From: Rhodococcus tibetensis
Lineage (GTDB): Bacteria > Actinomycetota > Actinomycetes > Mycobacteriales > Mycobacteriaceae
Reading direction: 5' to 3'
NCBI RefSeq assembly: GCF_024438035.1
Contig: NZ_JANFQF010000011.1
Location: 62,001 to 126,000, forward strand
Length of the DNA stretch: 64,000 bases
Position numbers and translations under genes: made by a program
The notes under the pieces: generated by a model
What the model saw: the letters and a program-made list of their open reading frames with translations, nothing else
What the model was told of the DNA's origin: nothing
The model's database searches: none
In this document: in pieces, positions 50,757 through 55,029 of the stretch
Layout of the letters: each line of letters starts with the position of its first letter
Numbering within the stretch: position 1 is the stretch's first letter

Positions 50757-51347
50757 GTGGAATATCGGGAGCTGAAGATCGCCGGGGCTTGGGAGATCAC
50801 TCCCCGCCAGTTCGGTGACGACCGAGGCGTGTTCCTCGAGTGGTTCAAGGGCTCGGAGTTCCAGGCCGCCGTCGGGCACGAACTCGAGCTCGCGCAGGCC
50901 AACTGCTCGGTGTCCGCCGCCGGCGTCCTGCGCGGCATCCACTTCACCGACACCCCGCCGGGTCAGGCGAAGTACGTCACCTGCGTCAGGGGTGCGTTCC
51001 TCGACGTCATCGTCGACGTGCGCGTGGGCTCCCCCACCTTCGGGCAGTGGGATTCCGTGGTGATCGACGATGTGGACCGCCGCGCCGTGTACCTCCCCGC
51101 AGGTCTGGGCCACGCCATCCTGTCGCTCGAAGACGCGTCCACGGTGATGTACCTGTGCTCCCTCGAGTACACCCCCGAACTCGACCACGACGTGCATCCC
51201 CTCGACCCCGACCTCGCCATCGACTGGCCCACCGTCGGGCGTGACGGTTCGCCGCTGACCTTCCAGCTGTCCGGGAAGGACTCGACTGCGCCGTCCCTGA
51301 CCCATGCAGCCGATGCCGGGCTCCTGCCTGTGTATTCGGGCGCCTGA
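50757..51347 (+). CDS. rmlC: dTDP-4-dehydrorhamnose 3,5-epimerase RmlC
   Basis: A 196-residue cupin enzyme from GTG 50757 (VEYRELKIAGAWEITPRQFG). Conserved NCSVSAAGVLRGIHFTDTPP, the catalytic His in RGIHF, KYVTCVRGAFLDVIVDVRVG, and YLPAGLGHAILSL. It epimerises the keto-sugar from RmlB. With RmlA and RmlB it leaves only RmlD to be encoded elsewhere. Confidence 0.94.
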   Translation: MEYRELKIAGAWEITPRQFGDDRGVFLEWFKGSEFQAAVGHELELAQANCSVSAAGVLRGIHFTDTPPGQAKYVTCVRGAFLDVIVDVRVGSPTFGQWDSVVIDDVDRRAVYLPAGLGHAILSLEDASTVMYLCSLEYTPELDHDVHPLDPDLAIDWPTVGRDGSPLTFQLSGKDSTAPSLTHAADAGLLPVYSGA

Positions 51348-51428
51348 GTCGGTCTTTTCTCTCGCAGCGGCATCACCCAGGTGAAGCGGAGTAGGCGCGG
51401 CACCGTCCGTGGGTGGGAGGATGCCGGA

Positions 51429-51938
51429 ATGACGAGCGACACGAACGAGACCACTGCGCCGCGGGAACGACTCGAAGTTCAGCGGGCGATTGCGGCCGAG
51501 CCGGCGGAGATCTTCGGCGTGCTGTGCGACCCGAACGGGCACGTGGCGATCGACAGTTCCGGCATGTTGATGTCCGCCGAGGGAGAACCCGTGACTGCGG
51601 CAGGTGACAGCTTCGTCGTCCACATGGACCGCGACGCGCTCCACGACATCGATCTCGGCCTGTACGACGTGACCGTGACGATCGAGACCTTCGTACTCGA
51701 CCGAGAGATCTCCTGGAAGGTCCTCGGCCGGATCCGCCCTCAGATCGGCCACGTGTACGGCTACCGGCTCGCGCCGATCAGCGAGGGCACGATGGTCACC
51801 TCGTATTGCGACTGGTCGTCCATCGACCCCGTCTGGCGGGACGCCGGAATCTTCCCGGTCATTTCCGACACCGCTCTGCGCGCCACGCTGGGCATCCTCG
51901 CCCGCACCGTCGCGCCTGGTTTGCCCCGGCCGCTGTAA
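51429..51938 (+). CDS. SRPBCC-family protein
   Basis: A 169-residue protein from ATG 51429 (MTSDTNETTAPRERLEVQRA). START-like fold: IAAEPAEIFGVLCDPNGHVA, a beta-rich middle (LYDVTVTIETFVLDREISW), and a final long helix. The ligand is unknown. It stands alone after rmlC. Confidence 0.78.
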   Translation: MTSDTNETTAPRERLEVQRAIAAEPAEIFGVLCDPNGHVAIDSSGMLMSAEGEPVTAAGDSFVVHMDRDALHDIDLGLYDVTVTIETFVLDREISWKVLGRIRPQIGHVYGYRLAPISEGTMVTSYCDWSSIDPVWRDAGIFPVISDTALRATLGILARTVAPGLPRPL

Positions 51939-51962
51939 TCGGAGTTCGGGTGGGCGGCGAAG

Positions 51963-52247
51963 TTACTCCTGCGGACGCCGGCGATTCTCCCGGCGTTGCT
52001 CCTCGGCACGTTCCCTGCACCGGCGCACGAACTCGGCCTCCTCCGGATCTTCGGGCAGACGTTCGCCGGGATACTTCTGCGGCCGCCCTGCCACCAGCCA
52101 CAGGATCGAGCCGACGATCGGCAGGAGCAACACCACAACCAGCCAGCCGTCCTTCGACAGGTTCCTGACCTCGTCTTCGTCGGTGGTGATGGCATCGGCG
52201 AAACACAGAACCCACAGGACGAATCCGAACAGCGCAACGTACAGCAT
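51963..52247 (-). CDS. Two-TM PLDc_N-type membrane protein
   Basis: A 94-residue protein from ATG 52247. Two TM helices (LYVALFGFVLWVLCFADAI and WLVVVLLLPIVGSILWLVAG) joined by a charged loop, then a highly charged tail (RRCRERAEEQRRENRRR). The region resembles the N-terminal membrane part of PLD nucleases, found alone in many actinobacteria. It lies 85 bp downstream of the reverse transcriptase on the same strand. Some retrons use two-TM effectors, so a link is possible though unproven. Confidence 0.72.
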   Translation of the reverse strand: MLYVALFGFVLWVLCFADAITTDEDEVRNLSKDGWLVVVLLLPIVGSILWLVAGRPQKYPGERLPEDPEEAEFVRRCRERAEEQRRENRRRPQE

Positions 52248-52332
52248 CAGCGTTCTCCTCGCCCGGCACACCCGAACACATGGTGCGCCTGACTCCATCG
52301 AACAACTGCCGCGGTGTCGCCGCAAGGGGTAG

Positions 52333-53580
52333 TCAGCTCATCTCCGACCACTCGATACGGTCGGCGAGGGCGAGCAGCGCACGCTTCCTGTTCGGGTTGG
52401 ATTCACCGATCCAGGCGATACGCCCGTACACGTGCTCGCGGAAGTACGGCCTCCCGTCGCGGTTCTGCAGTTCTGGGCCAGTGCGTATGCAGTTGAAGAG
52501 CAACGCACGCAGTTGGTCGTACTCGGTGCGTGCGGCCCCCGGGTGCGCGTTGACCACGAGTCCCGCCAGATGCTGCCGTCGGTGCGCTCGCATGATCCGC
52601 GTCTTGCCCTGGTGCACCGAGAAGCCTTCGTCCGCCGCGATCCGGCCGACGGCGTGGATCAGTCGGTCCACCGCGAGGTCGGCGCCGGAGAACGCGAGAT
52701 CGTCGGCGTACCGGGTGTATTCGGCTCGGGAAGACCGCGCCAGACCGGTCAGCCGCCGATCGAGCCGATGCGCGACGAGATTCGCGAGGGCAGGCGAAGT
52801 CGGCGCGCCCTGCGGTAGATGCGAACCCCGCAATCGACTTGCCCCGTCGAACGGGAGCCTCGCGAGGACGTCCGGTGGGGTGGAAGTCGTGCACAACCCT
52901 GTCAGCACACGCGACACCCGTGGCCGATACCCGAACGAGTCGAATACCGCCCGCACCCGCGTCCGGGAAATCGACGGAAAGAAGGCGCGCAGATCGATTC
53001 GCACCACGACGTCTTCACCTGCATGCGGAGCCGCGAACATGTGAACGCTGCGCCCAGGAACGAATCCGTGCGCAGCGGCATGCGGAGGTACTCGGTCGAG
53101 CACGGACCGCAGAATCCGGCGCTGCACCTCGCGGAGACGTTCCTTGGGCGCTTCCAGCAAGCGATGGTCAGATCGGATCCGGTAGCGGTAGTGCTGCAGG
53201 GTGGGCGCCTTCTTCCGCAGCCACTCGCCCGGATCGGCGAACCAGTCCAGTTCCGCCGGTGTGAGACCGATCGCCTGCGCGACCGCGACAGTGTGGGTCC
53301 ACTTCGGAACGTCGAATTTCCACTCGTGGTCGGGTTTCTCGACCACCGGAGTCGGCTCGTCGATGTTCGGCAGCTCCGACAGCAGCCGGTACACGCTGTC
53401 GACCCCCTCGACCGGAGGGGTGGGCAGAAGGTCGAACAATCGTGTTGCGATCCGGCCGGCGTCCGGGATGCCGATCTCCTCGAACCGCTGGGCGATCGCC
53501 GCCCGCGTCCACGAACCCGATACGGCTCCGGCGGCGAGACGATGTGCCACTGCCGGGGACAGGGCGCGACGCCTTGTCAT
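52333..53580 (-). CDS. Retron-type reverse transcriptase
   Basis: A 415-residue RT from ATG 53580, only 2 bases after the candidate RNA repeat a2. Residues 1-140 form an extension containing LRKKAPTLQHYRYRI. RT motifs: HGFVPGRSVHMFAAPHAG (171-188), VVRIDLRAFFPSIS, LPQGAPTSPALANLVAH (255-271), catalytic YTRYADDLAFSG (YADD 291-294), and the retron-type block HLAGLVVN followed by EYDQLRALLFNC. This is retron rather than group II intron or DGR layout: no maturase or endonuclease domain. Retrons make RNA-linked DNA and serve in phage defence with an effector. Confidence 0.9.
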   Translation of the reverse strand: MTRRRALSPAVAHRLAAGAVSGSWTRAAIAQRFEEIGIPDAGRIATRLFDLLPTPPVEGVDSVYRLLSELPNIDEPTPVVEKPDHEWKFDVPKWTHTVAVAQAIGLTPAELDWFADPGEWLRKKAPTLQHYRYRIRSDHRLLEAPKERLREVQRRILRSVLDRVPPHAAAHGFVPGRSVHMFAAPHAGEDVVVRIDLRAFFPSISRTRVRAVFDSFGYRPRVSRVLTGLCTTSTPPDVLARLPFDGASRLRGSHLPQGAPTSPALANLVAHRLDRRLTGLARSSRAEYTRYADDLAFSGADLAVDRLIHAVGRIAADEGFSVHQGKTRIMRAHRRQHLAGLVVNAHPGAARTEYDQLRALLFNCIRTGPELQNRDGRPYFREHVYGRIAWIGESNPNRKRALLALADRIEWSEMS

Positions 53581-53582
53581 GC

Positions 53583-53756
53583 GTGCGACGGTGAGAGGCG
53601 ACCGATACCTGTCGTCTGCGGCGCGCCGAAGCACGCGGAGCGTGCGGCCGTGCGTCGGACGGTGCCTCCCGTGAACAATGCCGAGCCAGGGGTTACCCCT
53701 GACGTGGTCGCAGCCGGCGTACCGGCTACCCCACTCTCACCCCTGCACCGTCGCAC
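53583..53756 (-). ncRNA. Candidate retron msr-msd RNA
   Basis: An 11-bp perfect inverted repeat GTGCGACGGTG (53583-53593) / CACCGTCGCAC (53746-53756) brackets 174 nt directly upstream of the RT start, as a1/a2 repeats do. The match extends with CTCTCAC/GTGAGAG across a 5-base bulge. Between them, on the minus strand, are stem-loops AGCCGG-TACG-CCGGCT (about 53712-53727), CAGGGG-TAA-CCCCTG (about 53688-53702) and GCACGC-TCC-GCGTGC (about 53632-53646). Size and placement fit a retron non-coding RNA. The branching G and exact msd borders were not determined. Confidence 0.68.
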
Positions 53757-53841
53757 CTCGTGAGAATGCCATAAAGTCAGCCGCTTTCGGAGGGTTCCGG
53801 GCCGACGGCGTCGCCGGCGCCTTCGCACGGGTGAGAGCACG

Positions 53842-55029
53842 TCAGACCGATGCGGTCACCGGCTTCCTGTCGGTGCGGGCGAACCGCTGGTAGCCGGCGT
53901 GGGTGAGCCATTCGAGGGGACCACGTTCGAACCGCCTTAGCCACAGCCGCGACACCACGACGAGGGTTGCCGACACCATGATGAACAATGCCACCGTGGC
54001 CGGAACGATGGTGCTGCCGTCCAGCCGCGCCGCCAGACCGAAACCCCACCCGTAGCAGACGACGGAACAGAGAACGTTCTGCAGCACATAGCAACTGAGT
54101 GCCGTCCGGCCGATCGGGGAGACCGCACGGCCTACGGTGCCCGGTTCTCGGCCGTCGGCGTAGCGGTGCGCGATCGCAGCGAGGAGACCGAGGGCCACGA
54201 CAGGCGCGGTCCCGTACCTGCCGAGCACCAGGCCGGCGTCTCCACCGAACAGTCCGAGTGCGAAATCCAACGGCAGTGCGAGCACCAGACCGACAAGCAT
54301 GAGCCGACGCCGCAGGGGTCCGCGATCCGGATCGAGGATGCGCGCGCCGAACAGATGGGCGCCGGCCAGGAAGAGAGCGATCGACAGCGGCAGAATGAAG
54401 ATGACTTCGAGGCGGAAGAACACGAGGTTGTCGAGGCGGAAGAACACGAGATCCACGAAGCTGCCCTCGGCGTAGGGATTCGGCGACAACGATTGTGGTT
54501 GTCTCGCGGACGCCGAGGACAAGGCCAGGGAGATCAGCGCGAGCATCGCCGCGTGGACCACCGCGGCACACCACATCCACACCCGTTGCGCGCGGACGCC
54601 GGTGGTGAGCACGAACGCGACGATCAGACCGGTCAACGCGTAACCGGTGAGCACGTCGAATTCGGTGAAAAGGAAAAAGTGCACCGCTCCGTCGAACATG
54701 AGAATTGCAGCTCGCCAGGAATAGCCACCCGGCCACGGCAGTCCGCGGCGCTGAGCGGAACGCTGCTGGATGGCGAGACCGATACCGAACATGATCGTGA
54801 GCAGGCCGAGGAACTTTCCCTGCGTGCACTGTTGGAGGACCGCCTGCACCGGCGCCCACCCGCCGGTGGCCAGTCCCGTGCCGTTGACGTAGCCGACCAA
54901 GCCCTCGACGCCCGTGAAGATCCAGATGTTGGTGCCGAGCGTGCCCAGGATCGCAATCCCGCGCATGACATCGAGCGCAGCGTAGCGGCGGGAACCCGGT
55001 TGATCTGCGGCCATCCTCAACCCCTCCAA
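53842..55029 (-). CDS. DUF418-family membrane protein
   Basis: A 395-residue polytopic protein (MEGLRMAADQPGSRRYAALD; start at 55029 or ATG 55014). DUF418 features: ALDVMRGIAILGTLGTNIWI, a middle with several TM helices, and the C-terminal GRTALSCYVLQNVLCSVVCY with RRFERGPLEWLTHAGYQRF. Members are thought to be transporters or acyltransferase-like. It is divergent from a TetR gene with a shared 60-bp region holding a palindrome, so it is probably the TetR target. Confidence 0.85.
   Translation of the reverse strand: MEGLRMAADQPGSRRYAALDVMRGIAILGTLGTNIWIFTGVEGLVGYVNGTGLATGGWAPVQAVLQQCTQGKFLGLLTIMFGIGLAIQQRSAQRRGLPWPGGYSWRAAILMFDGAVHFFLFTEFDVLTGYALTGLIVAFVLTTGVRAQRVWMWCAAVVHAAMLALISLALSSASARQPQSLSPNPYAEGSFVDLVFFRLDNLVFFRLEVIFILPLSIALFLAGAHLFGARILDPDRGPLRRRLMLVGLVLALPLDFALGLFGGDAGLVLGRYGTAPVVALGLLAAIAHRYADGREPGTVGRAVSPIGRTALSCYVLQNVLCSVVCYGWGFGLAARLDGSTIVPATVALFIMVSATLVVVSRLWLRRFERGPLEWLTHAGYQRFARTDRKPVTASV

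Follow-up and report, generated by a model that had tools for sequence, protein, structure and literature searches.

A reverse transcriptase and its upstream template RNA in Rhodococcus tibetensis look like a two-component, untyped retron

Organization of the locus

The window, a stretch of 64,000 nucleotides of Rhodococcus tibetensis DNA, carries on its minus strand a retron reverse transcriptase (RT) preceded by a template RNA that is bounded by two inverted repeats, a1 and a2 (Table 1). Direct reading bears out the arrangement described in an earlier note made from the sequence alone: the repeats pair exactly, 152 bases separate them, and a2 is followed by two bases and then the ATG of the RT, in which the three reported sequence blocks can be read. 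In the MFE structure the a1/a2 stem comprises 19 pairs with one bulged C, eight of the pairs lying inside the bulge, and the three stem-loops that the note had placed between the repeats correspond to two msr-like hairpins and an msd stem-loop. The RNA region folds on the minus strand with −98.9 kcal/mol (z −3.34), and 1 of 200 dinucleotide shuffles folds equally well.

Table 1 Features of the retron locus in the window
Feature	Position	Strand	Basis and remarks
-10-like hexamer CATTCT	53768-53763	minus	just 5′ of a1; CAnnnT variant, not strict TAnnnT
a1 repeat GTGCGACGGTG	53756-53746	minus	direct reading, MFE; putative 5′ end of template RNA
Bulged C	53745	minus	between a1 and its inner extension
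Inner extension, a1 arm AGGGGTGA	53744-53737	minus	pairs with 53601-53594 (MFE)
Candidate branching guanosine	53736	minus	first base past the stem; assigned by position
msr-like hairpin 1	53734-53704	minus	MFE; basal helix 3
msr-like hairpin 2 (GTCAGGGGTAACCCCTGGC)	53703-53685	minus	MFE; helix 4; best-paired element
Putative msd template, at most 83 nt	53684-53602	minus	stretch from hairpin 2 to the a2 arm
msd stem-loop	53661-53613	minus	helices 5-7
Inner extension, a2 arm TCGCCTCT	53601-53594	minus	MFE and covariation
a2 repeat CACCGTCGCAC	53593-53583	minus	direct reading, MFE; exact pairing with a1
Retron reverse transcriptase, 415 aa	52333-53580	minus	ATG at 53580; QGAPTSP, YADD, GLVVN
RT N-terminal extension, residues 1-82	53335-53580	minus	predicted four-helix bundle

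The RNA itself has no entry in Rfam: a search of positions 51000-55000 returns a single match at E<=5, which is far below its cut-off and lies outside the template RNA. The statement of the earlier note that the RNA resembles nothing recognised holds in this sense, and fails in another, as kin of the RNA are widespread in relatives. PADLOC already includes the protein family; Rfam has no entry for the template RNA.

The protein is a retron reverse transcriptase

Profile comparison places the window RT inside the retron RTs. Its best PADLOC model is RT_other (PDLC02949), which scores 578 bits and aligns residues 4-413 with model positions 64-472 of 481; RT_outgroup (PDLC03740) reaches 541 bits, and every one of the 25 PADLOC families among the matches listed (of 62) bears the name of a retron RT. 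With 308 bits for RT_XIII against 578 for RT_other, the protein is not a type XIII RT in PADLOC terms. The predicted fold is closest to those of known retron RTs, and retron structures head the list of structural matches. A group II intron or DRT enzyme was rejected because its profile scores, at 52 bits for group II and 30 for Drt2, are far below those of retron models (159 bits for retron St85). Retron RTs carry the signature motifs NAxxH and VTG. These are partly kept in the window RT, where, in the alignment to Ec86, NATPH reads FAAPH and VTGLV reads LAGLV.

Covariation of the template RNA

Inverted repeats that differ in sequence and are similar in span were located by script 5′ of the RT in most of 30 loci fetched from the window's own genome and 100 relatives. 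Alignment A2 contains 29 of these RNAs, and its consensus is the predicted structure plus helix 5 (3 pairs, added by hand); L019 was omitted as the script left its arms unplaced, and its genome, G032, still matches the covariance model. Two-sided changes occur at 27 of the 43 pairs of A2, and the share of paired cells is 94.6%, compared with 82.1% on average after shuffling (0 of 500 shuffles as high), while controls with slid partners pair 32.6-50.3% of cells. The 11-bp a1/a2 pairing (helix 1), whose conservation in homologues had been left open by the earlier note, is indeed conserved, with two-sided change at 8 of 11 pairs. The remaining elements follow: the inner extensions of the arms (helix 2) show such change at 4 of 6 pairs, the base of msr-like hairpin 1 (helix 3) at 4 of 4, and the msd stem-loop (helices 5-7) at 8 of 14, and in msr-like hairpin 2 (helix 4) 99.6% of cells are paired. 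The retron layout that had been claimed, an msr-msd RNA followed by the RT, is thus upheld by retron profiles, fold and covariation.

A second alignment, A5, was built from 21 chosen non-actinobacterial RNAs with boundaries taken from the covariance-model search; it was thus aligned and folded independently of A2, though its members were not found independently. Its architecture matches that of A2, and 20 of its 36 pairs show two-sided changes. The order of stem, G, hairpin and msd stem-loop is kept in these distant phyla, and a hairpin like msr-like hairpin 2 is present in the RNAs from other phyla.

The G directly past the stem (column 37) is found in 28 of the 29 A2 RNAs and is invariant in A5. 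By this position, the conserved G at 53736 is a candidate for the branch point. The motif at this place in A2 is GAGA in 23 of 29 RNAs, the window included, GAGC in 3 and GAGG in 2; the context in A5 is CAAGC in 19 of 21, TAAGC in 1 and GAAGA in 1. For comparison, the known retron branch motifs given in PMC6868368 are TAGC (common), CAGA, CAGC, GAGC and ACGC, with GAGC known from Mx65.

Among the features that count against the retron reading are the GAGA motif in place of the common TAGC, the altered NAxxH and VTG motifs, and the lack of a linked effector in the searches made. The last two would also suit a different enzyme, a group II-like or DRT reverse transcriptase whose inverted repeat forms a leader or attenuator hairpin. 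We regard this as very improbable, since the retron profiles score far ahead and since the stem, the G, the hairpin and the msd stem-loop are conserved as far as distant phyla.

Sequence 5′ of a1 points to a start of transcription at the repeat. Of 118 loci, some of which are not independent of one another, 77 have a TAnnnT hexamer whose first base lies 20 to 9 bases 5′ of a1, with a peak at −13/−12 over a background of 0.0017 per position. Because the hexamer lies at a fixed distance before a1, the RNA transcript probably starts at a1.

Co-occurrence of the RNA and the RT

Among the 101 genomes examined (the window's own and 100 relatives), an RT match is present in 41 and was not found in 60. 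The covariance model finds the RNA in 39 of the 101, every one of them an RT carrier, and the RNA without the RT in none. Two genomes have an RT match without the RNA: G064, where the RT match is partial, and G066, where it is weak. G064 does yield a weak RNA match, L178, in an extended RNA search that covered 100 loci.

The pairing extends beyond the relatives. A wider scan found 576 loci, the best 80 of which, from many phyla, were named. Of these best 80 named loci, 78 have the RNA 5′ of the RT when E<=0.05 is allowed, and 73 still do with the threshold at 0.01. The 78 matches consist of 73 placed by script and five, at loci that have no N-terminal extension, read from the table; five of the 78 have E between 0.01 and 0.05, and the match at L090 is partial. 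The RNA model finds no match at two of the best 80, L082 and L109. At L034 (G476), one of the further loci searched, a strong RT_other match is accompanied in the stretch searched by only a 13.9-bit scrap of the RNA, which is diverged, moved or lost there.

Two myxobacterial genomes contain, besides a window-type copy, five further and different retron RTs (L183-L187). The RNA model matches none of these five loci.

Lineage and genomic setting

The lineage, which the earlier note took to be actinobacterial, is not confined to that phylum. RT_other is also the best model for relatives from Burkholderia, Planctomycetes, Gammaproteobacteria, Arthrobacter and myxobacteria, with 474-549 bits. In a quick tree with a midpoint root, 99 window-type rows split from five XIII-like rows with an SH-aLRT of 99, and the rows come from Actinomycetota, Pseudomonadota, Acidobacteriota, Planctomycetota, Myxococcota, Verrucomicrobiota and Gemmatimonadota, several of these phyla being represented by metagenome bins alone. 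The label 'Cyanobacteriota' on two Rhodococcus rows stems from a name clash. Within the phylum, RT_other matches occur in 59 of 396 genomes at E<=0.001; only 5 of them exceed 490 bits, and the remaining matches are weaker and partial.

Within the genus, the RT is present in 17 of 28 genomes, in one of which (G026) it is split between contigs. The RT frame is broken at three different places in L007 (G023), L009 (G019) and L020 (G014), all of which keep the RNA; these breaks are either decay or sequencing error. Among phage records, none of the five that match covers 80% of the query, and among plasmid records 2 of the 33 that match do so. Relatives on plasmids of Tsukamurella (NZ_LR134447.1, 93% of the query) and Dietzia (NZ_CP046569.1, 76%) indicate that the lineage travels on plasmids too.

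One genomic position recurs. In 13 of 120 loci (L065, L066 and L157 being near-identical), the retron has dnaE2 upstream of it in the same orientation, and in several folD lies downstream. In the four copies tested, the upstream gene is dnaE2 by NCBIfam NF004225 (error-prone DNA polymerase). The distance from the dnaE2 stop codon to the start of a1 is 9 bp in L165 and 22 bp in L164. A LexA-like box, matched to a consensus without shuffled controls, lies ahead of dnaE2 in 6 of the 10 copies scanned (three of them near-identical), and LexA-like matches 5′ of a1 itself are weak (2-3 mismatches) and occur in 5 of 29. None of the papers searched mentions both retrons and dnaE2.

The position directly behind an SOS polymerase gene in part of the Actinomycetota, from which gene the retron may be read through, raises the idea that the element serves the host in DNA damage and not in defence. 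The close spacing to dnaE2 and the boxes before that gene speak for this reading. Common descent accounts for the shared location, though; the window copy and most other copies are not at dnaE2, the RNA has a promoter-like hexamer of its own, the LexA-like matches before a1 are weak, and the RT was not found in 60 of 101 genomes. We therefore hold a DNA-damage function to be improbable, and interpret the dnaE2-linked position as a shared location of long standing, perhaps of regulatory significance.

Some loci carry labels that call for care. In L065, labelled Kitasatospora arboriphila, and L066, labelled Williamsia muralis, dnaE2 is 99% identical to the L157 gene and the retron arms are the same as in L157; L065 may be mislabelled or reflect a recent transfer. 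The contig of L117, labelled Vibrio cholerae 35D, has an Arthrobacter-like retron and neighbours common to L127 and L134, and is probably a contaminant.

Neighbouring genes and the N-terminal extension

We searched the surroundings for a partner gene using all ORFs of at least 70 codons, a set that is not one of curated genes and in which a small or fast-evolving partner could be missed. No steadily linked gene was found across the 120 loci; the largest cluster of near neighbours takes in 14 loci from 7 synteny groups, with neither position nor strand kept constant. Leaving the RT aside, only L142, an 89% identical sister, shares at least three neighbours with the window copy. Of the ORFs around it, two that lie 5.8-8.5 kb away are matched distantly in L070/L159, there on the other side, and one has a 24% match in L123.

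Two neighbours in the window, a DUF418 and a PLDc_N gene, were considered individually, and neither has a PADLOC match. DUF418 was rejected as a partner: its DNA matches, some very short, occur in 14 of 28 genus genomes, including the RT-less G002, G005, G020 and G027, and there is no match in G013, the closest RT carrier. PLDc_N was likewise set aside, as it adjoins the retron in the window genome and G013 only and lies on another contig or megabases away in carriers of close copies, such as G001, G006, G016, G019, G023 and G024. A linked effector gene or a recognised fused effector domain, the feature of the 13 typed tripartite retrons, was not encountered. With no steadily linked gene found, the locus looks like a two-component, untyped retron.

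The N-terminal extension of the RT is shorter than the earlier note had estimated. Because the alignment of most retron RTs begins only at model residue 81-98, the extra part comprises residues 1 to about 82 and not some 140. When residues 1-96 are predicted alone, helices are formed by residues 9-20, 26-36, 41-51 and 60-69 (mean pLDDT 75.8). Searches of PDB and Pfam reveal no significant relative of this domain, with no Pfam family above cut-off; the full-length PADLOC RT_other match takes the extension in. Nothing found bears out the suggestion that the extension houses an effector. L104 carries the N-terminal domain and the RT core in different ORFs, through a frame break or a split gene.

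Five loci of the Pseudonocardiaceae keep the RNA and the RT without the extension: L071, L074, L075 and L077 of Amycolatopsis and L095 of Kutzneria. Their RTs start at or near the core, the loss at L077 and L095 being deduced from the end of the RNA relative to the RT match, and the flanks examined contain no separate N-terminal ORF. L071, L074 and L075 sit among extension-bearing Pseudonocardiaceae in the tree, which indicates that the domain was probably lost there. The domain is thus not essential in every member, and the five copies are natural deletion variants.

A competing explanation is that the effector is encoded elsewhere or has been lost, so that the RNA and the RT are half of a tripartite system, or a remnant of one, and the N-terminal domain has only a structural or docking role. 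The five extension-less loci and the broken RT frames in 3 of 17 genus carriers favour this explanation, as does what PMC12548924 says of effectors in its account of Bth1 and Sda1: most described retrons have one, Bth1 stands alone without an obvious one, and that of Sda1 has been replaced. A remnant, on the other hand, would hardly be so long-lived, given that the unit of RT and RNA is kept across several phyla without a steadily linked gene. We consider a missing effector possible, if rather unlikely.

Proposed mechanism

We favour a two-component retron that acts as RNA and RT, with a probability of roughly 80%. A promoter just 5′ of a1 would begin transcription at that repeat and give an RNA at least about 180 nt long, in which the a1 and a2 arms would pair to form a long stem. 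The RT would then bind the RNA, use the 2′-OH of guanosine 53736 as primer and reverse transcribe an msd stretch of no more than 83 nt into RNA-linked DNA, which would yield an RT-msDNA particle. Priming from a G that follows a stem, and copying of the msd, are features of the known retrons treated in PMC6868368; the RNA start, the branch point and the production of msDNA proposed here are inferences, the last of them a strong one.

What the particle does can be put forward more tentatively. By analogy with the defence role that PMC12548924 and PMC12262390 describe for typed retrons, it might serve in phage defence, and the N-terminal four-helix domain, as a candidate partner, might do or recruit the job that falls to the separate effector of typed retrons. 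The patchy presence in the genus (17 of 28 genomes), together with the broken frames in 3 of the 17, fits an accessory gene, for instance a defence gene. Against defence stands the fixed position of the retron at one chromosomal place in several actinobacteria, which is unusual for defence genes.

Comparison with known systems

The closest counterparts of the window RT are the PADLOC families RT_other and RT_outgroup, which match it over its full length; these are protein models, and their names carry neither a type nor a partner. The type XIII-like RTs of the myxobacterial loci L184, L185 and L187 share with it the presence of sequence before the RT core and occur in genomes that also have a window-type copy. 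They differ in that their best model is RT_XIII, with 376-509 bits (308 for the window RT), and in that they stand separate in the tree. L187 is, we presume, kin of Mx162.

Retron-Eco1 (Ec86) is the solved structure closest to the window RT both by sequence and by fold. The elements of Ec86 follow the order a1, branch G, msr, msd, a2 and RT, an order matched in the window with the candidate G at 53736, and its branch site is TAGC. Ec86 differs in that it works with an effector, as the title of 7v9x states, and in that nothing in it aligns to residues 1 to about 82 of the window RT.

For actinobacteria, a literature search by title, the main retron classification lying outside its coverage, found no characterised retron of this kind; in Rhodococcus ruber Chol-4, a retron-type RT/polymerase is marked in a figure legend, as annotation only (PMC6498646). 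If it makes msDNA, the native RNA-RT pair described here could serve for DNA production in Rhodococcus.

Most described retrons are tripartite, with an RT, an RNA and a toxic effector, and lone ones have been noted singly. Retron-Bth1, as portrayed in PMC12548924, resembles the window element in having a retron RT and an RNA with no obvious effector, but is an isolated example that a group II intron interrupts and an extrachromosomal element carries. The lineage of the window, by comparison, pairs the RT with an RNA not in Rfam across many phyla, and the neighbour search found no effector steadily linked to them. If msDNA is made and the pair acts alone, this lineage would show what the core of a retron does by itself.
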